Assembly (NCBI RefSeq): GCF_014490445.1
Contig: NZ_JACTUZ010000012.1
Location: forward strand, 1-61,831
Origin: Pseudoroseomonas ludipueritiae
Lineage (GTDB): Bacteria; Pseudomonadota; Alphaproteobacteria; Acetobacterales; Acetobacteraceae
DNA: 61,831 nt
Direction: 5' to 3'
The notes beneath the pieces were generated by a model. It saw nothing but the letters and a program-made list of their open reading frames with translations. It did not search any database and was not told the DNA's origin. The translations under genes were made by a program, and so were the position numbers. This document shows positions 1 through 12,391 of this stretch, in pieces. Within the stretch, counting starts at the first letter, position 1, and every line of letters begins with the position of its first letter.

Positions 1-361
1 CCAGCAGCGCCTGGGCCACGGCCTCAGCCTGGGTGGCACCCGCCCCGGCGGGCAGATGCGCGGCGACGGGCCGCCGGTCCTCCGGCCGCAGCAGCAGCGT
101 GCCGGGGGAGCGCGCCATCTGGCCCACCAGCGCGGCGTCATAGACATGGTCGGCGCGCAGCAGCAGGGCGGCGCTTTCGCCCGCCCCGGCCACCGGCACC
201 TTGGCGCGGGTCAGCGCACGGCGCAGCAGCTCGGAGGAAGGCATGCTCCAGACCGGCACCGGCCCCTCGCCCAGCAGCCGTGCCGCCACTGGCGCGGGGG
301 CATTCGCCGCCGGTGCGGCAGCCGCTATGGTCGCCCCCTTATGTCCCTGGTCCTGGCCCAT
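1..361 (-). CDS. CDP-alcohol phosphatidyltransferase family protein, N-terminus only (probable)
   Basis: An open frame of 120 codons starts at an ATG at 361 and runs off the left edge, so the catalytic part is not visible. A weak GGAG lies about ten bases before the ATG. After an Ala/Pro-rich start the protein reads VPVWSMPSSELLRRAL, then LLLRADHVYDAALV and GTLLLRPEDRRPVAAHL. This resembles the N-terminal segment before the membrane transferase domain in alphaproteobacterial CDP-alcohol phosphatidyltransferases. The diagnostic DG-x2-AR motif would lie beyond the edge and cannot be checked. It is divergent from the phosphoesterase gene and overlaps its start by 21 bases. Two nucleotidyltransferases 5-7 kb away fit a role in moving an activated alcohol onto a lipid. 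The family call is tentative; the reading frame itself is better supported. Confidence 0.45.
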   Translation of the reverse strand, partial: MGQDQGHKGATIAAAAPAANAPAPVAARLLGEGPVPVWSMPSSELLRRALTRAKVPVAGAGESAALLLRADHVYDAALVGQMARSPGTLLLRPEDRRPVAAHLPAGAGATQAEAVAQALL

Positions 362-1264
362 CTTTCCGATCTCCACCTGCCACCCGAGGCTGGGCCGACC
401 CTTCGGCAGCTCTTTGGCAAGCGCTTGCTGTCCTACCTTGCGTGGCAACGCAAGCGCCGCCGCCGCACCGAACTGCCTTTGCCCCGCCTGCTGGAGGATC
501 TGGCCGCCTTCGCGCCGGAAGCGATCGCCGTCACCGGCGACCTGACGCATTTCGCCCTGCCGGACGAGTTCCGCGCCGGGCGCGCCTTCCTGCAACGGCT
601 GGGGCCGCCGGGCAAGGTGCTGGCCATTCCCGGCAACCACGACGCGCTGGTGCCGGTGCCCTGGGCGGCGGGGCTGGGCCATTGGGCCGAGTGGATGCGC
701 GGCGACACCGCCGGCTTCGAGGGTTTCCCCTTCCTGCGCCGCATCGGCGATGCGGCCATCATCGGCCTCTCCACCGCCGTGCCGACCATGCCGGGCCTCG
801 CCTCCGGCCGGCTGGGGCGGGAGCAGGTGGACCGGCTCGGCTCATTGCTGGCGGAGGCGGGGCGCCAGGGCCTGTGCCGCGTGGTGCTGATCCACCACCC
901 GCCGCTGGGCGAGAACCGCCGGCGCGGGTTGCAGGACCGGGCGGCGCTGTTGCAGGTGCTTGCCCAACATGGGGCGGAGATGCTGCTGCATGGCCATAGC
1001 CACCGCCCCGCCCTGCTGCCGGTGGCGGGCCCGGCCGGGCAGGTGCTGCCGAGCATCGGGGTGCCCCAGGCCCTGGCGGGGGCGGGGCACCGTCATCTCT
1101 CGCGCTGGCACCTCTACCGCCTCGGCCGGGAAGGCGGCGCCTGGGTGCTGGAAACCCTGGTGCGCGGCTACGACCCGGCGGCGGGCCGCTTCCGCAGCCT
1201 GGGCGAATGGCGCCTGAGGCTCGGCGGCGCGGTGGGGGAGGCGGCGGTCAGTATCGCAGCCTGA
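341..1264 (+). CDS. Calcineurin-like metallophosphoesterase
   Basis: A 307-residue cytoplasmic enzyme with the full set of calcineurin-type metal motifs: D10-x-H12 (SDLHLP), GD at 66-67 (GDLTH), GNHD at 98-101, a His pair in LIHHPP near 188 and GHSH near 222. Family members hydrolyse phosphomonoesters or cyclic nucleotides at a two-metal centre; the substrate cannot be told here. The start at 341 places DLH at the usual distance from the N-terminus, although the frame stays open upstream and no good ribosome site is seen. It overlaps the divergent transferase gene at its 5' end and the convergent DUF2141 gene by 17 bases at its 3' end. In this lipid-gene setting a phosphatase for a lipid or head-group phosphate is possible but unproven. 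Confidence 0.85.
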   Translation: MSLVLAHLSDLHLPPEAGPTLRQLFGKRLLSYLAWQRKRRRRTELPLPRLLEDLAAFAPEAIAVTGDLTHFALPDEFRAGRAFLQRLGPPGKVLAIPGNHDALVPVPWAAGLGHWAEWMRGDTAGFEGFPFLRRIGDAAIIGLSTAVPTMPGLASGRLGREQVDRLGSLLAEAGRQGLCRVVLIHHPPLGENRRRGLQDRAALLQVLAQHGAEMLLHGHSHRPALLPVAGPAGQVLPSIGVPQALAGAGHRHLSRWHLYRLGREGGAWVLETLVRGYDPAAGRFRSLGEWRLRLGGAVGEAAVSIAA

Positions 1265-1709
1265 TCGGTACACGGCCTCCCTCCGGCCCCACCTGGAAGC
1301 GCACGGAGTCGAAGCTCGGCAGGCCGATCACCGTCGGCGCGTCGTTGGAGAAGCCATAGCCTTCCGCCGGCATGCCCAGCAGCGTGCGGTTGAAATCATG
1401 GTCGTCATTCTCGTCGTGATAGACCGCGACCGCGTAGATGCCGGGGGTGGAGACGGCGAAGCAGGCCTCCGCCTGGGTGCTGTGCAGCGGCACGCGCTGC
1501 CGGGCCAGCTTGCCGGTGCGGGCCAGGAAGGCATCGGGCCGGCTGCCATAGAGCGTGATCGTCATGTTGCCCGCGACCTTGCGCGCGCCGCTGACCACCA
1601 CCTCGATGCGCGGCCCATTCGGCGCGCCGGGGGCGCCGCAAATCCCCGCCACCTGTTCCGCGGCGCTGACGGATGCCAGTGGCGCCAGGGCCAGCATGGC
1701 GAGCAGCAC
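1248..1709 (-). CDS. DUF2141 family secreted protein
   Basis: The protein carries the conserved DUF2141 block: ITLYGSRPDAFL, YAVAVYHDENDDHDF, then GMPAEGYGFSND and a C-terminal beta-rich segment. Family members are small exported beta-sandwich proteins of unknown function. A hydrophobic export signal ending near SVSAAE is visible. The start is uncertain. GTG at 1709 is given, but the residues encoded just upstream (LRRLRRGWP) look like the basic head of a signal peptide, so translation may begin further upstream, possibly overlapping the divergent HIT gene; ATG at 1697 is a third option. The 3' end overlaps the convergent phosphoesterase gene. Nothing in it indicates a specific link with the lipid genes. 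Confidence 0.75.
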   Translation of the reverse strand: MLLAMLALAPLASVSAAEQVAGICGAPGAPNGPRIEVVVSGARKVAGNMTITLYGSRPDAFLARTGKLARQRVPLHSTQAEACFAVSTPGIYAVAVYHDENDDHDFNRTLLGMPAEGYGFSNDAPTVIGLPSFDSVRFQVGPEGGRVPIRLRY

Positions 1710-1818
1710 AGGCCAGCCACGTCTCAGCCGCCGCAGCCGCCCCTCGTCCTCGGCGGCGTGAGGGACTATGTTGAGCCCCGGAAACGCCCTTCGTCCCCTC
1801 TGTTTTTTGAGACGCGGA

Positions 1819-2262
1819 ATGCCAAGTGCGACACTGAACAAGTTCGGGTATCCCATGACGCTGGTGGGGGAGACGAAGCACTGGGCGGTGCTGGTGCGCC
1901 CGGAGCAGCCGACGCTCGGCAGCCTGGTCATGATCTGCCGCGAGCCTGTTACAGCCTTCGGCGAGGTCAGCCCGGCCGCCTTTGCCGAGATGGGCGGCGT
2001 GGTGGCGCGGATCGAGGCCCTGCTGCGGGATTTCATCGGCTACGCCAAGATCAACTACCTCATGCTGATGATGGTGGACCCCGATGTCCATTTCCACGTC
2101 ATCCCCCGCTATGAGGGCAGCCGTGAGCATAACGGCCTCTCGGTGCCGGATGCCGGCTGGCCCGGCCCCCCGGCGCTTGGCACGGCCGTGAAGCCGGATG
2201 AGGCGGCGCTGAAGGATCTGGTCGCCACGCTGCGCGCGCGCTGGGCCGGCCTGCCAGCCTGA
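1819..2262 (+). CDS. HIT family protein (Ap4A-hydrolase-like)
   Basis: A 147-residue histidine-triad family protein. The start at 1819 gives MPSATLNKFGYP, a typical beginning for alphaproteobacterial HIT proteins that continue LGSLVMICRE and end near PDAGWPG. The active-site strand reads NYLMLMMVDPDVHFHVIPRY. Two His of the H-x-H-x-H motif are present, but the third position is Pro-flanked rather than His, so this belongs to a variant group. HIT proteins hydrolyse or transfer nucleotides at an alpha-phosphate, which fits dinucleoside polyphosphate turnover. The stop TGA overlaps the start of lptF as TGATG, so the two are probably translationally coupled. An ATG at 1768 would add 17 residues that the family lacks. 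Confidence 0.85.
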   Translation: MPSATLNKFGYPMTLVGETKHWAVLVRPEQPTLGSLVMICREPVTAFGEVSPAAFAEMGGVVARIEALLRDFIGYAKINYLMLMMVDPDVHFHVIPRYEGSREHNGLSVPDAGWPGPPALGTAVKPDEAALKDLVATLRARWAGLPA

Positions 2263-3560
2263 TGGACACGGCCCCCGCCACGCTGGAGGCACGGCCGCGC
2301 GCCACCAGGGGCGCCGGCAGTCCGCTGGTGACGCGCTATCTGCTGCGCCTGCTGGGGCGGCCGCTGGTGGCGACCCTGCTGGTGGTGCTGCCGGCCCTGC
2401 TGCTGGAGCGGCTGCTGCGGCTCTTCGACCTTGTCGCCACCAGTGCCGGCGCGGTGGGGCCGGTGATCCAGCTGGTGCTCTTCCTGGTGCCGCATTACAT
2501 CGGCCTGGCGCTGCCGGCGGCCTTCTTTGTCAGCGTCTTCACCGTTATCACCCAGTTGAGCGAAAATCATGAGCTGGATGCCCTGCAAGGCACCGGCATG
2601 TCGCTCTCGCGGCTGGCGCGGCCCCTCCTGGCGGTGGGCGTGGCGCTGGCGCTGCTGGGGTTGTTGCTGCATGGCTATATGCAGCCGCTCGGCCGCTACA
2701 ACTACCGCGCCGCCTTCAATGCCGTGACCCATGCCGGCTGGAACGCCAAGGTGGGCGCGGGGGACTTCATCCGCCTCGGCAGCCGCCTGACCGTCACGGC
2801 TGATTCCGTGGATGCCATGACCGGCCAGCTCACCGGCGTTTTCATCGAGCAGCGGCGGACCGATGGCACCGAGGTCACCACCACCGCCCGGCGCGGCTGG
2901 CTGGTGCGCCAGCCCGATGAAGGCACGCTGGTGCTGCAACTGGAAGGCGGCTCGCAGATCGAGGTTTCGCCCGAGGGCGAGGTGAATACCCTGCGCTTCG
3001 GGGATTCCTCCGTCACCCGCCCCTTCAGCCTCTCCATCCCGCCCTTCCGGGCCCGCGGCGACGACGAACGCGAGATGACGCTGGACGAGCTTTGGAAAGC
3101 CACGTCCGGCCCGCCGCCCACCTCGACCGGCGGCGGCGGCCCGATCCCGCACAGCCGCCTGGTGGGCGAGCTGCATGGCCGGCTGGTGCGCTCCTTCTCC
3201 TTCGCGCTGCTGCCGCTGCTGGCGGTGCCGATGGGCCTGGGCGCCAAGCGCACGCGGCGCTGGCAGGGCGTGGCGCTCTCGGCGCTGATCCTGGTGATCT
3301 ACCACCATGGCGTGCAGCTGGCGGAATCGCTGGGCGATATCGGGCTGATCGACCCGCGCCCGGCGCTCTGGGGCCTTTTCGCCGGCTTCGCCATCCTCTC
3401 GGCGCTGGCCTTCCGCCATGCCAACCGCAATCCCTACGAAGGCCCCTTCGACGCGGTGCTGGAGCGGTTGGAGGGCGTGACCGCCGCCATCGGCGCCCGC
3501 CTGCCGCGCCGCCGCCGCCGTGCCGCCGCCGAGGCCTCTTCCGAGGCCGCGCAGCCATGA
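2262..3560 (+). CDS. lptF: LptF/LptG-family permease, first of pair
   Basis: A 432-residue inner-membrane permease of the YjgP/YjgQ family. Three N-terminal membrane segments lie at about residues 30-60, 65-95 and 110-140. A periplasmic beta-jellyroll domain follows (about 150-290), then three C-terminal membrane segments (about 305-395). The conserved LSENHELDALQGTGMS cytoplasmic stretch of the family is clear. In LPS export, LptF and LptG form the permease of the LptB2FG extractor that passes lipid through the jellyroll to LptC/A. There is an extra 20-residue head and a basic RRRRR tail of about 30 residues. It is coupled to lptG by an ATGA overlap. Its place beside ceramide-type genes leaves open a dedicated role in sphingolipid rather than LPS transport. 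Confidence 0.9.
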   Translation: MDTAPATLEARPRATRGAGSPLVTRYLLRLLGRPLVATLLVVLPALLLERLLRLFDLVATSAGAVGPVIQLVLFLVPHYIGLALPAAFFVSVFTVITQLSENHELDALQGTGMSLSRLARPLLAVGVALALLGLLLHGYMQPLGRYNYRAAFNAVTHAGWNAKVGAGDFIRLGSRLTVTADSVDAMTGQLTGVFIEQRRTDGTEVTTTARRGWLVRQPDEGTLVLQLEGGSQIEVSPEGEVNTLRFGDSSVTRPFSLSIPPFRARGDDEREMTLDELWKATSGPPPTSTGGGGPIPHSRLVGELHGRLVRSFSFALLPLLAVPMGLGAKRTRRWQGVALSALILVIYHHGVQLAESLGDIGLIDPRPALWGLFAGFAILSALAFRHANRNPYEGPFDAVLERLEGVTAAIGARLPRRRRRAAAEASSEAAQP

Positions 3561-4621
3561 TCCGCCGCCGCTACCTGTCGCGGCTGTTCCTGGGGCGGCT
3601 GCTGGCGGCGCTGCTCGGGCTGGCGGCGCTGATCCAGTTGCTGGACCTGTTGGACCGCGCCAGCGAGGTGCTGCACCGCGGCGGGCTGCTGGACCTCGCG
3701 CGCTATGCCGGGCTGCGGCTGCCCAGCGTGCTAGGGCAGATGGTGCCGCTGGCGGTGCTGATCGCCGGCATGCTGACGCTGCGCCGGCTGGCCATGACGC
3801 TGGAGATGACGGCCCTGCGCGCCGCCGGCATCCCCGTGCGGCGCGTGCTGGTGATGCTGCTGCCCGCCTGTGCCATGGCGGCGGTGGCGCAGGCGCTGCT
3901 GCTGGGCATCGTGGCCCCGCGCACGGAACGTGCCCTGGCCGCCTGGTGGGCCCGCACCGAAAGCCGTGCCCTGGTGCCGGACAAGAAGCCGCAGCGGGTG
4001 TGGCTGCGGGCTGGCTCGCAGATCATCGGCATCGACCGTGTGTCGCTGGATGGCACGCAGTTGCAGGGCGTGCTGCTGGTGCCCCGCAGTGCCGATGCCC
4101 TGGCCCTGGCCCGCATCGAGGCGGGCAGCGCCGAGCATACCTCCGCCGGCTGGACCCTGCGTGACGTGCGCGTGGCGGAGCCCAGCGGCGCCGTGCTGGC
4201 GCGGCAGGCGCTGCGCCCCTGGCCCGAGGGCCCGCCACCGGCCGAGATCCTGGACGTGGCACGGCCGACCGAGGCACAGGACCCCTGGTGGCTGCTGCGT
4301 GCCCTGCGGCGGGAAAAGGCGGTGGACCGTGGGCCCGCCTTCTACCAAACCCGCCTGCATACCATGGCGGCGCGGCTGCTGGGCCCCTTCGTGATGCTGC
4401 TGCTGGCCGCCGCCGTGGCCTTCGATGTACCGCGACGGGGTGGTGGCATGGCGCGGCCGCTGCTGGCGCTCTGCCTGGGGCTTGGCTTCATGCTGCTCGG
4501 CGGCCTGCTGGGCGCGCTGGGTGAGGCCGGGGTCATACCCGCCGCCCTGGCTGTCTGGACCGCGCCGATCCTTTTCGCCGCGATCGGCGGCAGCCTGCTG
4601 ATCCGCTTCGAGGAACAATGA
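3557..4621 (+). CDS. lptG: LptF/LptG-family permease, second of pair
   Basis: A 354-residue partner permease with the same layout as LptF: membrane segments at about 10-35, 50-75 and 95-125, a periplasmic domain at about 130-260, and three segments from about 270 to the end. The cytoplasmic LAMTLEMTALRAAGIP stretch matches the family coupling-helix region. The ATG overlaps the lptF stop, and its own TGA overlaps the ATG of the next gene, so lptF, lptG and the acyltransferase read as one coupled unit. Neither the LptB ATPase nor LptC/LptA is in the window. The lptF/lptG order is the common one; assignment as G rather than a second F rests on that order. Confidence 0.88.
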   Translation: MIRRRYLSRLFLGRLLAALLGLAALIQLLDLLDRASEVLHRGGLLDLARYAGLRLPSVLGQMVPLAVLIAGMLTLRRLAMTLEMTALRAAGIPVRRVLVMLLPACAMAAVAQALLLGIVAPRTERALAAWWARTESRALVPDKKPQRVWLRAGSQIIGIDRVSLDGTQLQGVLLVPRSADALALARIEAGSAEHTSAGWTLRDVRVAEPSGAVLARQALRPWPEGPPPAEILDVARPTEAQDPWWLLRALRREKAVDRGPAFYQTRLHTMAARLLGPFVMLLLAAAVAFDVPRRGGGMARPLLALCLGLGFMLLGGLLGALGEAGVIPAALAVWTAPILFAAIGGSLLIRFEEQ

Positions 4622-5778
4622 TGACCGAGCACAGCCGGGCGGCGGTGGAGATCGTCCCGGTCTCCGGCGCCGCCGCCATGGAGCGTTTCATCCGCCTGCC
4701 GGAGCAGTTGCTGCGTGGCGACCCGAACTTCGTGCCGCCGCTGCGGATGGAGCGGCGCCTGGCCTTCTCCACGCGCAAGAACCCCTATTTCCGCCATGCC
4801 GAGGCCGCCTTCTGGCTGGCGCGGCGCGGCGGGCGGGTGGTCGGGCGCGTCAGCGCGCAGCAGGACCGGCTTTCCCCGCCCATGGCGGATGGCAGCCCCG
4901 CCGGCCATTTCGGCCTGCTGCTGGCCGAGGACGACGCGGATGTCCACGCCGCCCTGCTGCGCGCCGCCGAGGGCTGGTGCGCCGCGCGTGGGGTGAAGCG
5001 CATCACCGGCCCCTTCAGCCTGTCCATCAACGAGGAAAGCGGGCTGCTGGTGGCGGGCCACGACACGCCACCCATGCTGATGATGCCGCATGACCCGCCC
5101 CATACCGCCCGGCAACTGGAGGCGCTGGGCTACCGGCGGGAGAAGGACCTGCTGGCCTACCGGGTGGAAACCGCCGCGCCGCCTTCCGCCGCCGCCGCGC
5201 AACTGGTTGGGCGCGGCCTGCCGCCGGGCGTGGTGCTGCGGCCCATCCGCATGGGCGAGATGCGGCAGGAGGTCGCGCGGCTGGTGGGCATCTTCAACGA
5301 TGCCTGGGCCGACAACTGGGGCTTCGTGCCCATCACCCAGGACGAGGTGGACACCATGGCCACCGCCCTGAAGCCGCTGCTGCGGGAGAAGCTGGTCTGG
5401 TTCGCGGAAGTGGAGGGGGAGGCGGTGGCCTTCGCCGTCTGCCTGCCCAATCTGAACGAGGCGATCCGTGACCTGGGCGGCAAGCTGCTGCCGCTAGGCT
5501 GGGCCAGGCTGCTCTGGCGGCTGAGGGGCCAGCGCATCCACACCGCACGGGTGCCGCTGATGGGGGTGAAGCGCAGCCTGGCCAAGGGCATGCTGGGCCG
5601 GGTGCTGCCCTTGTTCATCGTGGATGCGCTGCGGCGGGAGGCACGGGCGCAGGGCATCCGCACCATCGAGATGTCCTGGGTGCTGGAGGATAACCTGCCG
5701 ATGCGCCGCCTGGCCGAGGCTGTGGGAGGCGAGGCGTACAAGACCTATCGCGTCTTCGGCAAGGACCTGGCGGCGTGA
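4618..5778 (+). CDS. YghO/bacterial ceramide synthase-like N-acyltransferase
   Basis: A 386-residue protein of the GNAT-related family that includes E. coli YghO and the bacterial ceramide synthase of Caulobacter. Family signatures seen are LLRGDPNFVPPL (about 31-42), KNPYFRHAEAAFWLAR then VVGRVSAQ (about 58-82), ITGPFSLSINEESGLLVAGHD (about 129-148), and a C-terminal GNAT half ending in EMSWVLEDNLPMRRLAEAVGG. The bacterial ceramide synthase joins a fatty acyl group to the amine of 3-ketosphinganine. It is tied by 4-base overlaps to lptG before it and the nucleotidyltransferase after it. A fatty-acyl-AMP ligase and an epimerase-type reductase follow within 4 kb. The family placement is good; ceramide synthesis as the actual reaction is inferred from this context. 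Confidence 0.72.
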   Translation: MMTEHSRAAVEIVPVSGAAAMERFIRLPEQLLRGDPNFVPPLRMERRLAFSTRKNPYFRHAEAAFWLARRGGRVVGRVSAQQDRLSPPMADGSPAGHFGLLLAEDDADVHAALLRAAEGWCAARGVKRITGPFSLSINEESGLLVAGHDTPPMLMMPHDPPHTARQLEALGYRREKDLLAYRVETAAPPSAAAAQLVGRGLPPGVVLRPIRMGEMRQEVARLVGIFNDAWADNWGFVPITQDEVDTMATALKPLLREKLVWFAEVEGEAVAFAVCLPNLNEAIRDLGGKLLPLGWARLLWRLRGQRIHTARVPLMGVKRSLAKGMLGRVLPLFIVDALRREARAQGIRTIEMSWVLEDNLPMRRLAEAVGGEAYKTYRVFGKDLAA

Positions 5779-6542
5779 GCGGCGCCACCGCCCTGGTGCT
5801 GGCCGGCAGCCGTGCCGGCGCGGCGGACCCGATGGCCGTGGCCGCCGGCGTCTCCCACAAGGCGCTGCTGCCGGTGGCTGGCGTGCCGATGCTGGCACGG
5901 GTGCTGGAAGCCTTGCGGGACAGCCCCCGCATCGCTCGCATCGTGGTGATGATCGAGGCGCCGGAGCGCAGCCTGGCGGGCTTTCCGCTGGAGCCCGATG
6001 TGCTGCTGCGCCCGGCGCAGCCCTCGCCCAGCCTAAGCGTGGCGGCGGCGCTGGAGGAATTCGGCGCGCCGCTGCTGGTCACCACCGCCGATCATGCGCT
6101 TCTGACGCCCGCCATGGTGGCGGAGTTCATGGCCGACCTGCCGCCGGGTGTGGACGCGGCGGCGGGGCTGGCGCGGTCGGAGGTGGTGCTGGCCGCCTGG
6201 CCGGGTACGCGCCGCACCTGGCTGCGCTTCCGCGGCGGGCGCTTCAGCGGCTGCAACCTGTTCTGGATGGGCACGCCGCGCGCCGCTGGGGTGGTGGAGT
6301 TCTGGCGGCGGGTGGAGCAGCAGCGCAAGAAGCCGCTGGCCATGGTGCGGATGCTGGGTCCCTGGGTGCTGCTGCGCTTCGCACTGGGCCTGCTCAGCCT
6401 GCCGCAGGCCCTGGCCGCGCTGGGGGCCCGCACCGGCACGCGGCTGGGAGTGGTGCAGATGCGCTTTGCCGAGGCCGCCGTGGATGTGGACAAGCCCGCC
6501 GACCTGGAACTGGCCGAAGCCGTCCTGGCGCGGCGGGGCTGA
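5775..6542 (+). CDS. MobA-like NTP transferase domain protein
   Basis: A 255-residue nucleotidyltransferase-fold protein starting at GTG in a GTGA overlap with the acyltransferase. The N-terminal LVLAGSRAG replaces the usual G-x-G-T-R loop, HKALLPVAGVPML follows at about 30-42, and TTADHALL near 100 carries the metal-binding Asp. The C-terminal half (SGCNLFWMGTP to VDKPADLELAEAVL) is typical of the NTP_transf_3 group. Such enzymes activate sugar or alcohol phosphates with an NTP. Genes of this type accompany bacterial sphingolipid loci, so a head-group activating step is plausible, but the substrate is not readable from sequence. It converges on the next gene with a 9-base gap. Confidence 0.75.
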   Translation: MSGATALVLAGSRAGAADPMAVAAGVSHKALLPVAGVPMLARVLEALRDSPRIARIVVMIEAPERSLAGFPLEPDVLLRPAQPSPSLSVAAALEEFGAPLLVTTADHALLTPAMVAEFMADLPPGVDAAAGLARSEVVLAAWPGTRRTWLRFRGGRFSGCNLFWMGTPRAAGVVEFWRRVEQQRKKPLAMVRMLGPWVLLRFALGLLSLPQALAALGARTGTRLGVVQMRFAEAAVDVDKPADLELAEAVLARRG

Positions 6543-6551
6543 GGGCAGGGG

Positions 6552-7325
6552 CTATTCGGCCGCCGCCGGTGCGAGGCCGGCCTGGCGCCAGCGCTGGCCC
6601 AGCAGCTCCGCCCGCATCACATCGGCCGGGAAGTCGATCTCGCCCCAGGAGAGGCCCTCGATGGAGGCGACGCGGACCTCGGTCTTGGCCGCAAGGGCGT
6701 CGATGACGGAAAGGTACCAGCGCTTCAGCCCCTCCGGCTGGCGCATCACCGCCTCCACCCCCGCTGTGAACTGGGTGCCGCCTTCCCCACGGAACAGCAG
6801 CATGCCGATCGACTCGCCATGGGTGCGCTCCGGCGGCAGGGTCTTGCCGATGGCGCGCAGGCGCGTGCCTTCCAGCGAGACCTTCATGTCGTCGTCGTCG
6901 TAATGCGGCTTGCGGTCGATGGTGACGGTGATGGGCACCTGGGGCGCCTGCAACAGCCGGGTCAGGATGGCGGGCTCGAAGAGCGTGTCGCCATTCAGCA
7001 GCACGCAGCCATCCTCGCGGCTGCCGCTTTCCAGCACGTCGCGGGCGAGGAAGCAGCTACCGATATTGTCGGCCACGGCGAAGAAGGGATTGAACCGCGC
7101 CCTTACCCTGGCGGCGAAGCTCCCGAGTCCCGCCAGCATCTCATCCACCCGCCCGGCCCCGAATCCGGTCACAACCGTGACATCGGTGATGCCATTGGCG
7201 GCCAGGCCCCGGAGCTGCCATTCCAGCACGGGCATGCCGGCCACGGGCAGGAGGCACTTGGGGCGGGTCTCGGTCAGGGGCATGAGGCGCCGGCCCTGGC
7301 CGGCACAGAGAATAACAGCACGCAA
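6552..7325 (-). CDS. Sugar/phosphocholine cytidylyltransferase-like nucleotidyltransferase
   Basis: A nucleotidyltransferase of 257 residues when started at TTG 7325, where the family N-terminus LRAVILCAGQGRRLMPLT begins and a GAGGA lies ten bases upstream. An ATG at 7472 would add 49 low-complexity residues not expected in the family. Visible motifs are the G-x-G-x-R loop, RPKCLLPVAGMPVLEWQL, LLNGDTLF near residue 105 with the metal Asp, and EIDFPADVMRAE near the C-terminus. Relatives transfer CMP or UMP to phosphocholine, inositol phosphate or sugar phosphates. With the CDP-alcohol phosphatidyltransferase fragment at the left edge, a CDP-alcohol donor for a lipid head group is a reasonable guess. 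It is on the strand opposite its neighbours. Confidence 0.78.
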   Translation of the reverse strand: MRAVILCAGQGRRLMPLTETRPKCLLPVAGMPVLEWQLRGLAANGITDVTVVTGFGAGRVDEMLAGLGSFAARVRARFNPFFAVADNIGSCFLARDVLESGSREDGCVLLNGDTLFEPAILTRLLQAPQVPITVTIDRKPHYDDDDMKVSLEGTRLRAIGKTLPPERTHGESIGMLLFRGEGGTQFTAGVEAVMRQPEGLKRWYLSVIDALAAKTEVRVASIEGLSWGEIDFPADVMRAELLGQRWRQAGLAPAAAE

Positions 7326-7610
7326 GATATTCTGGTCCTCGTCGGCCGGGGCTGCGGCACCGCCGCGGAGCCCGGGGCCTGAGCTCCGGGTCAAGGGGGC
7401 AAGGCTAGCATCGGACCCGCTCTTACGCCACGGCAGGGCAGCTCTGCATCCGCCATTGTCATCCAACCGCAAGATTGACGCGGTGGAAGCGAGTCTCTAG
7501 GCAGGCGTGGCGAACTCCCGATCGTGGAGCCGCCTCTATGCCCGCCGGAGCTCTAGGCGGGCTGTATTCGTTTCCGGCCAGGCCGGACATCAGGGCGGAG
7601 ATAGCTCTAC
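7326..7610. other. Intergenic region between divergent nucleotidyltransferase and acyl-AMP ligase genes
   Basis: About 285 bases without a convincing gene. It must hold promoters for both divergent genes. A TTGACG at 7475-7480 followed after 17 bases by TAGGCA is a weak candidate for the ligase promoter; the -10 is poor. GGCGGAG lies 15 bases before the ligase ATG. Short open frames here have no family features. Confidence 0.4.
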
Positions 7611-9353
7611 ATGCCGCTTCCGATCCCGACCTTGAGCGGCCTTCCGCTGCGCCGGGGTGAGTTCGATTCGCTGCCACAGGCCCTGGATTACGCTGCCGGC
7701 GGGGCCACCGGGCTGGCTTTCCATTCCATCCGTGGCGGCCATGTCGCCAGCCTTCCTTACCGCGAGTTACGGCAGGACGCCCTGGACCTGGCGGGGCGGA
7801 TGCTCGGCGCCGGCCTGCGGCGTGGGGAGCGGGTGGCCATGCTGGCGGATACCTCTCCTGATTTCGTGCGCGCCTTCTTCGCCGCGCAGTATGCCGGGCT
7901 GGTGCCGGCGCCGCTGCCGCTTCCGCCGCCCTTCGGCGGGCGTGATGCCTATGTGGGGCAGATCGACCGGCTGCTGCGCGAGTCGCGGGCCGCGGCCCTC
8001 TTCACCCCCGCCGAGATCCTGCCCTGGCTTTCCCCGGTGGCGGAGCGGCTCGGCCTGAAGCTGTTTGGCACGGTGGAGCAGATGCGCGGCGTGCAGCCCG
8101 GTGCCGAGGCGCCGGTGCCGAGCGGGCCGGAAGACATCGCCTATCTCCAGTTCTCCTCCGGCAGCACGCGCCATCCGGCGGGTGTGGCGGTGCGGCAGCG
8201 GGCGGTGATGGCCAATACCTCGGGCATCATGCAGCACGGGCTGAAGATGCGCCTGGGCGACCGCACCACCTCCTGGCTGCCCTTCTACCATGACATGGGG
8301 CTTGTCGGCTTCCTGCTGACCCCGGTGGCTGGCCAGCTCTCGATCGACCTGATGCCGACGGCGGATTTCGCCCGCCGGCCGATGATGTGGCTGTCGATCC
8401 TTTCCGAGTACAAGGGCACGCTCTCCTTCAGCCCCTCCTTCGGCTACGAGCTTTGCGTGCGCCGCCGGGCCGCCGTGCCGGAAGGGCTGGACCTGTCTTC
8501 CTGGCGCGGCGCGGGCCTGGGTGGCGACATGATCCGCCCGCATGTGCTGGCCAGCTTCGTGGAAACCTTCGCCCCGCATGGCTTCCGGGCCGAGGCGCTG
8601 GTGCCCAGCTACGGCATGGCCGAGGCGACGCTGGCCATCTCCTTCGCCGAGCTGGACCGTGGCATCCGGACCGATGAGATCGACCTGACCCGGCTGGAAA
8701 CCGATGGCCGCGCTGAGCCCGCCACCGAGGCCACAGAGCGCCGCCGCCAGTTCGTCGCCTGCGGCGCCGTTCTGCCGGAGCACGAGCTGGATATTCGTGA
8801 CGCCGAGGGCCACAGCCTGCCGGACCGGCAGGTGGGCAGCATTCTGGTGCGCGGCCCCTCGATCATGCTGGGCTATGATGGCCAGCCGGAGCGCACGGCC
8901 GAGGTGCTTTCGCCCGATGGCTGGCTGAACACCGGCGACCTGGGCTACCGCCTGGATGGCGAGGTGGTGATCACCGGCCGCGCCAAGGACGTGATCCTGG
9001 TCAATGGCCGCAATATCTGGCCGCAGGACCTTGAGTGGTCGGTGGAGCAGGCGGTGCAGGGCCTGCGCACCGGCGACGTGGCCGCCTTCTCGGTCGATGA
9101 GGAAGGCGAGGAAACCGTGGTGGTGCTGGTGGAAGCCCGTGGCGCCCCGGACCCCACGGCGCGGGAGCGGCTGATCGCCGATGTCGGTGGCGTGCTGCGT
9201 TCCCGCCATGGGCTGGAAAGCCGGGTGGTGCTGGTGCCGCCGGGTGGGCTGGTGCAGACCTCCTCCGGCAAGCTGAGCCGGGCATGGACGCGCCGGAAGT
9301 ACCTCGAAGGCGCCTACGGCCCGGTCGCGAGCGCGAATTCGGAAGCCGCCTGA
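7611..9353 (+). CDS. Fatty-acyl-AMP ligase (AMP-binding enzyme)
   Basis: A 580-residue adenylate-forming enzyme. Core motifs are LQFSSGSTRHPAGVAV (P-loop-like A3, about 180-195), WLPFYHDMGLVG (about 225-236), PSYGMAEATLA (A5, about 330-340), WLNTGDLGY (A7, about 438-446), GRAKDVILVNGRNIWP (A8, about 455-470) and TSSGKLSR (A10, near 553). The FYHDMGLVGF block and SSGSTRHP are characteristic of fatty-acyl-AMP ligases that load an acyl carrier protein rather than CoA. In Caulobacter ceramide synthesis an acyl-ACP synthetase of this kind neighbours the reductase CerR. Here the reductase-like gene follows after 3 bases. No acyl carrier protein gene is seen in the window. Confidence 0.88.
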   Translation: MPLPIPTLSGLPLRRGEFDSLPQALDYAAGGATGLAFHSIRGGHVASLPYRELRQDALDLAGRMLGAGLRRGERVAMLADTSPDFVRAFFAAQYAGLVPAPLPLPPPFGGRDAYVGQIDRLLRESRAAALFTPAEILPWLSPVAERLGLKLFGTVEQMRGVQPGAEAPVPSGPEDIAYLQFSSGSTRHPAGVAVRQRAVMANTSGIMQHGLKMRLGDRTTSWLPFYHDMGLVGFLLTPVAGQLSIDLMPTADFARRPMMWLSILSEYKGTLSFSPSFGYELCVRRRAAVPEGLDLSSWRGAGLGGDMIRPHVLASFVETFAPHGFRAEALVPSYGMAEATLAISFAELDRGIRTDEIDLTRLETDGRAEPATEATERRRQFVACGAVLPEHELDIRDAEGHSLPDRQVGSILVRGPSIMLGYDGQPERTAEVLSPDGWLNTGDLGYRLDGEVVITGRAKDVILVNGRNIWPQDLEWSVEQAVQGLRTGDVAAFSVDEEGEETVVVLVEARGAPDPTARERLIADVGGVLRSRHGLESRVVLVPPGGLVQTSSGKLSRAWTRRKYLEGAYGPVASANSEAA

Positions 9354-9356
9354 CGC

Positions 9357-10346
9357 ATGGGGCTGGTGGCCGTCACCGGCGGCACCGGCTTCGTTGGCCG
9401 TTATGCCGTCGCGGCGCTGGCGCGGGCCGGGTGGTCGGTGCGCATGCTGGTGCGGCGGGACCCGGTGCACCCGCTTCTGCGGGACGTGGTGCCGGAACTG
9501 GTGCTGGGCGACCTTGAGGAAGAGGCCGCGCTGGCCCGGCTGGTGCGCGGCGCCGACGCCGTGGTGCATATCGCCGGCCTGACCAAGGCGCCCGACCTCG
9601 ATGGCTTCCTGCGCGTCAACCGCGACGGCACCGCCCGCATCGCCGCCGCCGTGGCGCGTGAAGCGCCGGGAGCGCGGCGGCTGCTGGTCTCATCCCTCGC
9701 GGCGCGGGAGCCGACCCTGTCGCATTACGCCGCCAGCAAGCGGGCAGGGGAAGAAGCGGCACGCGCCGCGCCGGGCGGCGAGGGCTGGACCATCCTGCGC
9801 CCCGGCGTGGTCTATGGCCCGGGCGACGAGGAAGGGAAGGCGCTGCGTGGCCTGGCCACCGCGCCGCTGGCCGCCATGCCGGGCCCGCCGGAGCCGCGCA
9901 TCGCCATGATCCATGCCGCCGATGTGGCGGAAGCCATTGCCGCTTTCTGCGGCGCCGGCATGGCAGGCGGGCTCCACGAACTCTGCGATGCACGCCCTGA
10001 TGGCTATGGCTTCGCCGAGGTGCTGGCCATCACCGCCGCCGCCCTGGGCCGCAGGCCGCCGCGCATGCTGCGGCTGCCGGATGCCGTTTTCCTCGGCGCC
10101 GGCGCGGCGGCGGATCTCTGGGCCGGCCTCAGCGGCCGGCGAGGCATCTTCGGCCGTGGCAAGGCGCGCGAGTTGCTGCACCGCGACTGGAGCGCCAACC
10201 GCGCCCTGCTGCCGCCCGCCACGCTCTGGGCGCCGCAGATCCCACTGGCACGGGGCATGGAAGGCGTGGCGAAATGGTGGGCGAATGGCTCCGCCGAGGT
10301 CACGCTTGCTGGCGCGCATCTACCCGGAGTCGATAATTCGGACTAG
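9357..10346 (+). CDS. NAD-dependent epimerase/reductase (CerR-like)
   Basis: A 329-residue extended short-chain dehydrogenase. The Rossmann motif GGTGFVG is at residues 8-14, VVHIAG near 65, SSLAAREP near 118 and the catalytic Y-A-A-S-K near 126-130; ILRPGVVYGPGD follows near 145. It begins 3 bases after the acyl-AMP ligase and is certainly co-transcribed with it. In the bacterial ceramide route a member of this family (CerR) reduces the 3-oxo group after N-acylation, giving dihydroceramide. Many epimerase-family proteins act on sugars, so the assignment depends on the neighbours: acyl-AMP ligase, YghO-like acyltransferase and lipid permeases. Confidence 0.75.
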   Translation: MGLVAVTGGTGFVGRYAVAALARAGWSVRMLVRRDPVHPLLRDVVPELVLGDLEEEAALARLVRGADAVVHIAGLTKAPDLDGFLRVNRDGTARIAAAVAREAPGARRLLVSSLAAREPTLSHYAASKRAGEEAARAAPGGEGWTILRPGVVYGPGDEEGKALRGLATAPLAAMPGPPEPRIAMIHAADVAEAIAAFCGAGMAGGLHELCDARPDGYGFAEVLAITAAALGRRPPRMLRLPDAVFLGAGAAADLWAGLSGRRGIFGRGKARELLHRDWSANRALLPPATLWAPQIPLARGMEGVAKWWANGSAEVTLAGAHLPGVDNSD

Positions 10347-10446
10347 TGTCTCCGCCCCTGCTCCAAGACGCAGGCCGGGACCATTACATCGCAGCTGCGG
10401 CCGGGCTTCCGCCGATGGCGCACAACAACCACCGTGGGGAACAACG

Positions 10447-11553
10447 ATGAACGACATGGCACAGGGCAGCCAGGCACAATCCGGCAAGAAGCTGCAGCCG
10501 GGCGTGGTGACCGGCGCCGACTACCTGACGCTGCTGGAGGCCTGCCGCGAGGGCGGCTATGCCCTGCCCGCGGTGAACGTGGTCGGCACCAACAGCATCA
10601 ACGCGGTGCTGGAAGCGGCGGCGAAGAACAAGTCCGACGTCATCATCCAGCTCTCGAACGGCGGCGCCCGCTTCTTCGCCGGTGAGGGCTGCCCCGATGC
10701 CGCCGCCGCCCGTGTGCTGGGCGCCGTTTCCGCCGCGCAGCATGTGCATACCGTTGCCAAGGCCTATGGCATCTGCGTGGTGCTGCACACCGACCACGCC
10801 GACCGCTCCCTGCTCGGCTGGGTCAATGCCATGATCGACCATGGCGAGGAGCACATGAAGAAGACCGGCAAGCCGCTCTTCTCTTCCCACATGATCGATC
10901 TCTCGGCCGAGCCGCTCGATGTGAACATCGAGGAATGCGCCAAGGTCCTGAAGCGCATGGCGCCGCTGGGCATGAGCCTGGAGATCGAGCTGGGCGTGAC
11001 GGGCGGCGAGGAAGACGGCATCGGCCATGATGTCGAGGAAAGCGCCGACAACGCCCACCTCTACACGCAGCCTGAGGACGTGCTGAAGGCCTGGGAGGTG
11101 CTCTCCCCCATCGGCCATGTCACCATGGCGGCCTCCTTCGGCAACGTGCACGGCGTCTATGCCCCGGGCAACGTGAAGCTGCGGCCGGAGATCCTGAAGG
11201 CGTCGCAGGAAGCGGTGTCCAAGAAGTTCGGCGGCGGCGACAAGCCGATGGCGCTGGTCTTCCACGGCGGCTCGGGCTCGGAGAAGGACAAGATCACCGA
11301 GGCCGTGTCCTATGGCGTGTTCAAGATGAACATCGACACCGACACGCAGTTCGCCTTCGCCGAGCCGGTGGGCGCCTATGTCGATGCCAATCCGGTGGCC
11401 TTCAAGCACCAGATCGACCCGGCCACCGGCAAGCCGCAGAAGAAGCTCTACGACCCCCGCAAGTGGCTGCGCGCGGGCGAGAAGGGCATCGTGAAGCGCC
11501 TGGACGAGGCCTTCGCCGACCTGGGCTCCGCCGGCCGCTCGCTGGCGCAGTAA
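10447..11553 (+). CDS. fbaA: Class II fructose-bisphosphate aldolase
   Basis: A 368-residue zinc aldolase of the E. coli FbaA type, cleaving fructose 1,6-bisphosphate to dihydroxyacetone phosphate and glyceraldehyde 3-phosphate in glycolysis and gluconeogenesis. Visible features are PAVNVVGTNSINAVLEAA (about 38-55), VLHTDHADRSLLGW with the zinc and catalytic residues (about 114-128), EIELGVTGGEEDG (about 179-191), FGNVHGVYAPGNVKL (about 232-246), VFHGGSGS (about 274-281) and KMNIDTDTQ (about 296-305). ATG 10447 follows GGGGAACAACG. It stands alone after about 100 bases and ends in a strong hairpin shared with the convergent iclR-type gene. The symbol is by similarity. Confidence 0.95.
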   Translation: MNDMAQGSQAQSGKKLQPGVVTGADYLTLLEACREGGYALPAVNVVGTNSINAVLEAAAKNKSDVIIQLSNGGARFFAGEGCPDAAAARVLGAVSAAQHVHTVAKAYGICVVLHTDHADRSLLGWVNAMIDHGEEHMKKTGKPLFSSHMIDLSAEPLDVNIEECAKVLKRMAPLGMSLEIELGVTGGEEDGIGHDVEESADNAHLYTQPEDVLKAWEVLSPIGHVTMAASFGNVHGVYAPGNVKLRPEILKASQEAVSKKFGGGDKPMALVFHGGSGSEKDKITEAVSYGVFKMNIDTDTQFAFAEPVGAYVDANPVAFKHQIDPATGKPQKKLYDPRKWLRAGEKGIVKRLDEAFADLGSAGRSLAQ

Positions 11554-11561
11554 GCGACTTC

Positions 11562-11589
11562 GGCCCGGCGCGTCACGGCGCGCCGGGCC
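11562..11589. terminator. Bidirectional hairpin terminator between aldolase and IclR genes
   Basis: An 11-bp perfect stem, GGCCCGGCGCG at 11562-11572 with its complement at 11579-11589, closes a 6-base loop TCACGG. It begins 8 bases after the aldolase stop. The right arm and loop are also the 3' end of the IclR gene, whose stop codon (TCA on the plus strand, 11573-11575) sits in the loop. There is no T run. Confidence 0.7.
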
Positions 11590-12391
11590 AGCCCTCGGCC
11601 TGGCTGAGGGCGCGGGCCGCCTCGATGGCCAGGGGCCCGACGCGGCGGCGGAAGGCATCCACTTCCCATTCCGCCAGCGACGCCGCGACATGGATCGCGG
11701 CCACCGGCCGCCCCTCCCGGTCCCGTACCGCGGTGGCCAGCACAATCTCCCCCAGCAGCGTTTCCTCGGCCGTCAGGGCGAAACCGTCCCGCCGCGCCTC
11801 GGCGATCTTGCGCCGCAGGCCGGGCAGGTCCGTGATGGTCCTGGGCGTCAGGCGGGGTCGTTCCGATTGCGCCAGGATTGCCTCGGCCTCGGCGGATGGC
11901 AGCGCCGCCAGCATCGCCCGGCCGCCGGAGCTACTGAAGGTGGGCTGCCGCCGCCCGACCAGCGTGGCGAAGAAGCTTTCCCGCTTGCTTTGCAGCCGCA
12001 CCGCATAGACCACGCTGGCGCCGTCGAAGAGGCTGAGGTCCACGCGCTCCTGCACCGTGCGGCGCAACTCCTGCAGCACAGGCGTGGCACGCTCCACAAG
12101 CGGGTTCATCCGCAGCGCGTCGAAGGAACGGTCCAGCAGCCGCTTGCCCGGCACCAGCCCGGCGCCCCCCGCGCCGCGTTCCAGGTAGCCCAGGGCCTGG
12201 AAGGTATGGGCGATGCGCTGCGCCGCGCTTTTGTCGAGCCCGCTGGCCGCAGCCAGCTCCGCCAGGGAAAGGGGGCGCGCCTGCTGCCCGAAGGCTTCCA
12301 GCACGCGCATGGCGCGTTCCACCGATTGCAGGAACAGGCGGTCGTCCGCGCCCTCCGGCACGGCTGGGCGCTTTCCCTTTGACACCTTCAC
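11573..12391 (-). CDS. IclR-family transcriptional regulator
   Basis: A 272-residue regulator. The N-terminal winged helix-turn-helix (about 20-85) reads FLQSVERAMRVLEAFG, LSLAELAAASGLDKSAAQRIAHTFQALGYLER. The C-terminal IclR effector domain (about 95-265) includes VDLSLFDGASVVYAVRL, SSSGGRAMLAALP and GFALTAEETLLGE. IclR proteins bind short palindromes as dimers of dimers and usually repress or activate adjacent catabolic genes. It is divergent from an SDR-SDR-deacetylase-binding protein operon, and a GTATTG/CAATAC palindrome lies midway between the two start codons. Its effector cannot be told; the operon content points to a small oxidisable alcohol or amide. Confidence 0.9.
   Translation of the reverse strand: MKVSKGKRPAVPEGADDRLFLQSVERAMRVLEAFGQQARPLSLAELAAASGLDKSAAQRIAHTFQALGYLERGAGGAGLVPGKRLLDRSFDALRMNPLVERATPVLQELRRTVQERVDLSLFDGASVVYAVRLQSKRESFFATLVGRRQPTFSSSGGRAMLAALPSAEAEAILAQSERPRLTPRTITDLPGLRRKIAEARRDGFALTAEETLLGEIVLATAVRDREGRPVAAIHVAASLAEWEVDAFRRRVGPLAIEAARALSQAEGWPGAP

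Follow-up and report, generated by a model that had tools for sequence, protein, structure and literature searches.

Results

The first 10,346 bases of a contig from Pseudoroseomonas ludipueritiae (NZ_JACTUZ010000012.1, here C24) are very probably the right-hand part of a locus for the synthesis of a phosphorylated sphingolipid and its export to the outer membrane, with the left part on a second contig, C75. The window that we analyzed is the whole of C24, 61,831 bases long, and the genome (5.35 Mb, 394 contigs) is rated 99.8% complete. The region is a genuine but for the most part unremarkable example of a known sphingolipid locus type, namely a Caulobacter-type phosphosphingolipid locus in a Roseomonas-like genome, the Caulobacter cluster being compared by its description in excerpts of PMC11324152 and not by sequence. 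This reading builds on gene content, gene order, homology, co-occurrence and adjacency in congeners, all of which we observed directly. The best named relatives of the ceramide synthase (CerS) in the window, among the matches listed, belong to Roseomonas.

Genes at positions 1 to 10,346 were called from an open reading frame (ORF) listing and profile searches, which confirmed the coordinates and gene families given by an initial annotation made from the sequence alone (Table 1). The N-acyltransferase, fatty-acyl-AMP ligase, epimerase-type reductase, two LptFG-family permeases, two nucleotidyltransferases and metallophosphoesterase proposed there were all recovered, and its interpretation of the region as a ceramide synthesis and export locus is supported. 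The CDP-alcohol phosphatidyltransferase that it listed as probable stands in part: some 82 codons are present, and the catalytic domain falls beyond the contig end, where it can be seen in a congener (locus L068). The fragment shares 98% identity with L068:11627-11869, and the complete L068 ORF scores 43.7 bits with PF01066 and holds the motif DGx2ARx8Gx3Dx3D, read as DGKLAR...GNYFDHLTD. Two genes inside the region, encoding a DUF2141 protein and a HIT-domain protein, had been missed. The genes of the region were seen together again in other genomes.

Table 1. Genes of the region in the window and of the corresponding block on contig C75.
Feature	Position	Strand	Evidence and remarks
CDP-alcohol phosphotransferase, 5' part, about 82 codons	2..247	-	CC_1159-like by family and place; remainder past contig end
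Calcineurin-like metallophosphoesterase	341..1264	+	PF00149 42.4 bits (cut-off 21.5); CC_1158-like by description and place
DUF2141 protein	1248 (stop)..1703	-	PF09912 91.5 bits; divergent from lptF2; start codon uncertain
HIT-domain protein	1819..2262	+	PF01230 20.1 bits, slightly below cut-off 21.5; heads the lptF2-lptG2-cerS-NT1 run
LptF2, second LptF-type permease	2262..3560	+	PF03739 194.7 bits
LptG2, second LptG-type permease	3557..4621	+	PF03739 201.3 bits; 4-base overlap with each neighbor
CerS/YghO-type N-acyltransferase (bacterial ceramide synthase)	4618..5778	+	42% identity to E. coli BL21(DE3) YghO over 375 residues; Spt co-occurrence; tree
NT1, MobA/CofC-like nucleotidyltransferase	5775..6542	+	PF12804 51.8 bits; CC_1153-like by family and place
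NT2 nucleotidyltransferase	6552..7421	-	PF00483 44.1 bits; start uncertain; CC_1152-like by family and place
AasR, fatty acyl-AMP ligase/acyl-ACP synthetase	7611..9353	+	NF006624 781 bits (cut-off 600); 42% identity to BL21 AasR
CerR, epimerase-type ceramide reductase	9357..10346	+	PF01370; 35% identity to BL21 CerR, 154 bits; tree
Flippase-like gene	C75, before acpR-spt		PF01943 below cut-off; 33% identity to BL21 gene adjoining spt
MYG1	C75, before acpR-spt		
acpR	C75:6543-6824		Directly before spt; PF00550 43.6 bits (cut-off 20.8); DS site
spt, serine palmitoyltransferase	C75:6827-8041		Adjoins acpR; NF047599 639 bits (cut-off 500)
Tam41-like gene (CDP-diacylglycerol-synthase-like, CC_1161 counterpart)	C75, after spt	-	Counted as a member of the locus
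Lipid kinase, 3' 205 codons only	C75, after spt, running off contig	-	

The first enzyme of the pathway, serine palmitoyltransferase (Spt), had been described as missing, with the suggestion that it and an acyl carrier protein might lie left of base 1. It is indeed absent from the window contig but present in the genome. Searches of the strain's own genome placed pyridoxal-phosphate-dependent transferases at 20 places and carrier proteins at 5, and the neighborhood shared by the two was on C75; the best PDB matches of the C75 Spt are serine palmitoyltransferases (E 1e-117 to 1.7e-121). Within the reach of the data the suggested position holds, the C75 block being collinear with the window block in a congener. 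In that congener (G191) a single contig aligns with window bases 1-11782 at 92.5% identity and with C75 bases 2744-9619 at 91.9% identity; window base 1 corresponds to L068:11870 and C75 base 9619 to L068:13032, leaving 1,161 bases between them. The sequence encoding the catalytic half (DGKLAR...FDHLTD) of the CDP-alcohol phosphotransferase falls in this gap, as does the beginning of the lipid kinase (GGDGT). The G191 kinase matches PF00781, carries GGDGT and would be, by family and place, the counterpart of the GGDG ceramide kinase CC_1160. Two further congeners (G190 and G197) have the locus genes in the order of G191, and in a fourth (G204) the locus is broken across two contigs in the same region as here. 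Because the C75 and window blocks adjoin on one contig in G191, the seeming lack of the first enzyme is most likely an assembly break.

The remainders of the two truncated genes were sought elsewhere in the genome. PF01066 was found at two other places only, C384 and C192, and the latter was set aside because on visual inspection it resembles a phosphatidylserine synthase-decarboxylase pair. A kinase fragment at the end of C148 was likewise rejected as the missing part, as it has its own frame with a catalytic part and thus appears to be a separate gene.

Within the window the HIT, LptF2, LptG2, CerS and NT1 genes overlap by 1 to 4 bases at every junction, which suggests that they form one operon. 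The metallophosphoesterase carries DLH, GD, GNHD and HGH motifs, and the N-terminus of the DUF2141 protein resembles a signal peptide by eye. BL21 AasR, like its counterpart here, exceeds the NF006624 cut-off. The second-best place for the CerR query in its own genome scores 70.8 bits, as against the 154 bits between CerR and BL21 CerR. NT1 matches the CofC model weakly (E 0.0014, far below the model cut-off), and the best E value of a CerS profile against PDB sequences was only 0.7. In a genome-contig scan for CerS, limited to the best 80 of 582 confirmed stretches, NT1 was matched in 42 of the 80 loci, the metallophosphoesterase in 30 and NT2 in 22.

CerS and Spt travel together. Among 190 alphaproteobacterial genomes, our own included, CerS was found at E 1e-10 in 25 and Spt with at least 390 bits in 25 (the next match has 247 bits); 26 genomes have CerS or a strong Spt and 24 have both (Fisher's test 3.6e-28, uncorrected for kinship). 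The exceptions are G035, where CerS stands beside the 247-bit Spt-like protein, and G071, 82% complete, where Spt lies at a contig end and CerS was not found. By hand count over the fetched loci, CerS and Spt share one stretch of less than 20 kb in 15 of the 23 other two-gene genomes, and 19 of the 23 have an LptF2 match next to CerS or Spt. Within the genus the locus is patchy, with Spt at E 1e-90 in 5 of 17 genomes including our own.

Genes for all five parts of the rhodobacterial ceramide synthesis set, acpR, spt, aasR, cerS and cerR, are present in the genome. The acyltransferase and the reductase both group with Spt-linked and E. coli BL21 homologues. BL21(DE3) served as the named reference for CerS and CerR rather than Caulobacter sequences, no Caulobacter titles being present among the best 80 of 582 CerS stretches; a protein search that started from one of the sampled genomes arrived at Reyranella-like organisms. 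In a quick tree of 47 CerS-like proteins, with Shimodaira-Hasegawa-like approximate likelihood ratio test (SH-aLRT) supports only, 15 of 44 inner branches open and ten rows of odd letter make-up, the window CerS joins its four congeners (99) and then Roseospira marina (98), and shares a 41-row part with BL21 YghO. A separate six-row group (99) comprises five proteins of a polyketide-module type and G159:C6. The CerS proteins of other sampled Acetobacteraceae (G206, G026, G158) fall elsewhere, and for that reason transfer or differential loss is possible. In the CerR tree (11 of 28 branches open, one long outgroup row) the congeners, Roseospira and G175 stand together (92).

Four LptF/G genes were found in the genome, two in the window and two on C339. 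LptF2 (SH-aLRT 99) and LptG2 (88) group with copies from sphingolipid loci, apart from the C339 pair, in trees with long outer rows.

One modest addition of this work concerns two genes found repeatedly at sphingolipid loci, HIT immediately ahead of lptF2 and DUF2141 in divergent orientation. Over 126 loci (L149 repeats L037, and L100 repeats L052), HIT precedes lptF2 by no more than 200 bp, in the same orientation, in 19 of the 21 loci where both were matched; for DUF2141, a divergent position upstream of lptF2 was seen in 17 of the 19 loci with matches to both. These are raw counts, both of which include the four congeners, and the cases are not independent. Neither gene is universal, with matches to HIT at 25 and to DUF2141 at 21 of the 126 loci. 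The predicted DUF2141 fold (mean predicted local distance difference test score 84) matched nothing with an E value of up to 0.001, and no function can thus be assigned to it from its fold.

Discussion

We judged what is known and what is new against excerpts of five papers (PMC11324152, PMC9386255, PMC10331486, PMC11087976 and PMC12134224), and a literature search returned, among the matches listed, no title on point for sphingolipids of Acetobacter or Roseomonas. Five ceramide genes, six head-group genes and a second LptFG pair have been published for C. crescentus and several other proteobacteria (excerpts of PMC11324152). By the families described there, the C. crescentus cluster CC_1168-CC_1152 resembles our locus in aasR, cerR, acpR, spt, cerS, CDP-diacylglycerol-synthase-like gene, phosphoesterase, two nucleotidyltransferases, a further lptF and lptG, and flippase, and probably also in ceramide kinase and CDP-alcohol transferase, of which this assembly has fragments. 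As far as the excerpts describe it, it differs in that aasR-cerR stand here at the far right beyond NT2 rather than adjoining acpR-spt, that HIT and DUF2141 here precede lptF2, and that its second LptC (CC_1168) has no counterpart detected in this genome; the same source lists carriers without a second LptC, which is therefore not strictly defining.

The E. coli BL21(DE3) set yghO-aasR-epi-acpR-spt (PMC9386255; L161) matches the five ceramide genes at 31-51% identity and, as here, has an lptG/lptF pair and a flippase-like gene nearby. Unlike our locus, the 49 kb fetched from BL21 gave no match for the phosphoesterase, DUF2141, HIT, NT1, NT2, Tam41-like, kinase or CDP-alcohol genes, and its LptF/LptG group with the canonical E. 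coli pair. A close parallel in gene content comes from Roseospira marina DSM 15113 (L133), where all queried locus genes except DUF2141 lie within 16 kb (identities of 59% for CerS, 64% for NT1 and 61% for Spt). There, too, lptG2 and cerS are adjacent with no hydroxylase between them; unlike here, aasR-cerR adjoin acpR-spt and the phosphoesterase-to-Tam41 block lies right of NT1. This strain could serve as a laboratory host for tests of a near-complete locus. A further comparison is offered by Gluconobacter oxydans, which belongs to the same family, Acetobacteraceae. According to the listing excerpted from PMC9386255, its aasR, acpR and spt are consecutively numbered, with cerR (GOX1849) and cerS (GOX2417) elsewhere.

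From the gene families we infer the chemistry, the head group and the transport of the lipid. AasR would load a fatty acid onto AcpR, and Spt would condense the AcpR-borne fatty acid with serine. The lipid kinase would then make ceramide-1-phosphate, which the Tam41-like enzyme may activate with CTP, and a phosphoglycerate-type head group would be built by NT1, NT2, the CDP-alcohol phosphotransferase and the phosphoesterase. Outward movement of the lipid could be carried out by the flippase-like protein and LptF2G2.

Several observations weigh against this pathway and locus. The adjacency of C75 and the window is taken from congeners and not read in this assembly, in which the kinase and CDP-alcohol genes are also incomplete. 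No Caulobacter sequence was compared, and the head-group genes are tied to their CC_ numbers by family and place only. The sole LptC (PF06835) of the genome lies on C366 and no LptC2 was seen, though the model might overlook a divergent LptC. In 9 of 11 other loci examined, lptG2 and cerS are separated by a fatty-acid-hydroxylase-like gene for which the window has no room, and the one FA_hydroxylase of the genome did not match one of those hydroxylase-like genes. Finally, the extra LptFG pair of BL21 joins the BL21 canonical pair (98 and 97) and not LptF2G2, and the tree thus speaks against a single shared origin of all extra LptFG pairs.

The gene between lptG2 and cerS, which shows His-box motifs by eye, occurs in L034, L035, L037, L039, L040, L044, L047, L048 and L055, and has no room in the congeners or Roseospira either. 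By eye, L037, L040, L044 and L048 additionally have a CDP-alcohol-phosphotransferase-like gene at this place.

It is possible, though in our view doubtful, that ceramide is made but carries a head group other than (di)phosphoglycerate, with NT1, NT2 and the CDP-alcohol phosphotransferase using an ethanolamine-, inositol- or glycerol-type alcohol phosphate. The best matches of NT2 are indeed models of sugar- and inositol-phosphate nucleotidyltransferases, none above cut-off among the best 25 of 31, and the published head-group scheme, as excerpted from PMC11324152, itself asks for assays of these enzymes; however, all six head-group gene families of the Caulobacter cluster have counterparts here by family and place. 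We consider it very improbable that the genes of the window serve independently to salvage or export ceramide made elsewhere and are unlinked in this strain to the acpR-spt of C75. The two blocks do lie on different contigs in this assembly, with cerS in a gene run apart from acpR-spt, an arrangement tied to a possible salvage role in excerpts of PMC11324152; yet they are contiguous in G191, G190 and G197, and both C75 and the window end within genes whose remainders lie in the G191 gap. It is hardly credible that the product is instead another N-acyl amino-ketone lipid, built from a different amino acid or from a polyketide chain in the manner of sulfonolipids or SgaAB lipids. Although a polyketide synthase, an oxoamine synthase and a CerS-like gene do form a module in a congener, the C75 enzyme exceeds the serine palmitoyltransferase cut-off and the window CerS lies outside the clade of polyketide-module proteins (SH-aLRT 99).

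The module itself (L078:817-10643, in G192) consists of a type I polyketide synthase gene, an Spt-like oxoamine synthase gene and a CerS-like gene in that order, and resembles the SgaAB polyketide sphingolipid cluster described in excerpts of PMC12134224 with an added N-acyltransferase. Spt-like and CerS-like pairs are also present in L075, L076, L077 and L079, the polyketide synthase having been checked in L078 only. These pairs occur in the congeners G192, G198 and G202 and in G210 of the same family, all four without the Spt locus, whereas G197 has a pair as well as the locus.

For the phosphosphingolipid locus as we read it, the recurrent positions of HIT and DUF2141 lead us to suggest, tentatively and as an idea that may well fail, that both could be unrecognized working parts of the pathway: HIT as a nucleotide-phosphate hydrolase or transferase for the head group, and DUF2141 as a periplasmic partner of LptF2G2 where a second LptC is not seen. 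Two leftover genes of the Caulobacter cluster, CC_1157 and CC_1167, were set aside as probably unrelated (excerpts of PMC11324152).

As of 2024, how bacterial sphingolipids reach the outer membrane was described as unknown (excerpts of PMC11324152). The overlapping HIT-lptF2-lptG2-cerS-NT1 run links N-acylation to the second LptFG pair and offers a compact gene set for testing. The excerpts of PMC9386255, from 2022, name C. crescentus and E. coli BL21 as the only bacteria in which the five ceramide genes are clustered, and PMC11324152 has already added Azotobacter vinelandii and Pseudomonas luteola. Our data show such clustering beyond C. crescentus and BL21, in more lineages than PMC9386255 listed, together with patchiness inside one genus: all five genes fit into 20 kb in loci such as L039, L040, L044 and L048, in Roseospira marina, and in the congeners G190, G191 and G197. 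CerS loci were also seen in records titled Nitrospirae, Chloroflexi, Thermodesulfobacteriaceae, Desulfobulbaceae, Desulfuromonadales and Desulfobacterales (L116, L117, L120, L121, L132, L136, L147).

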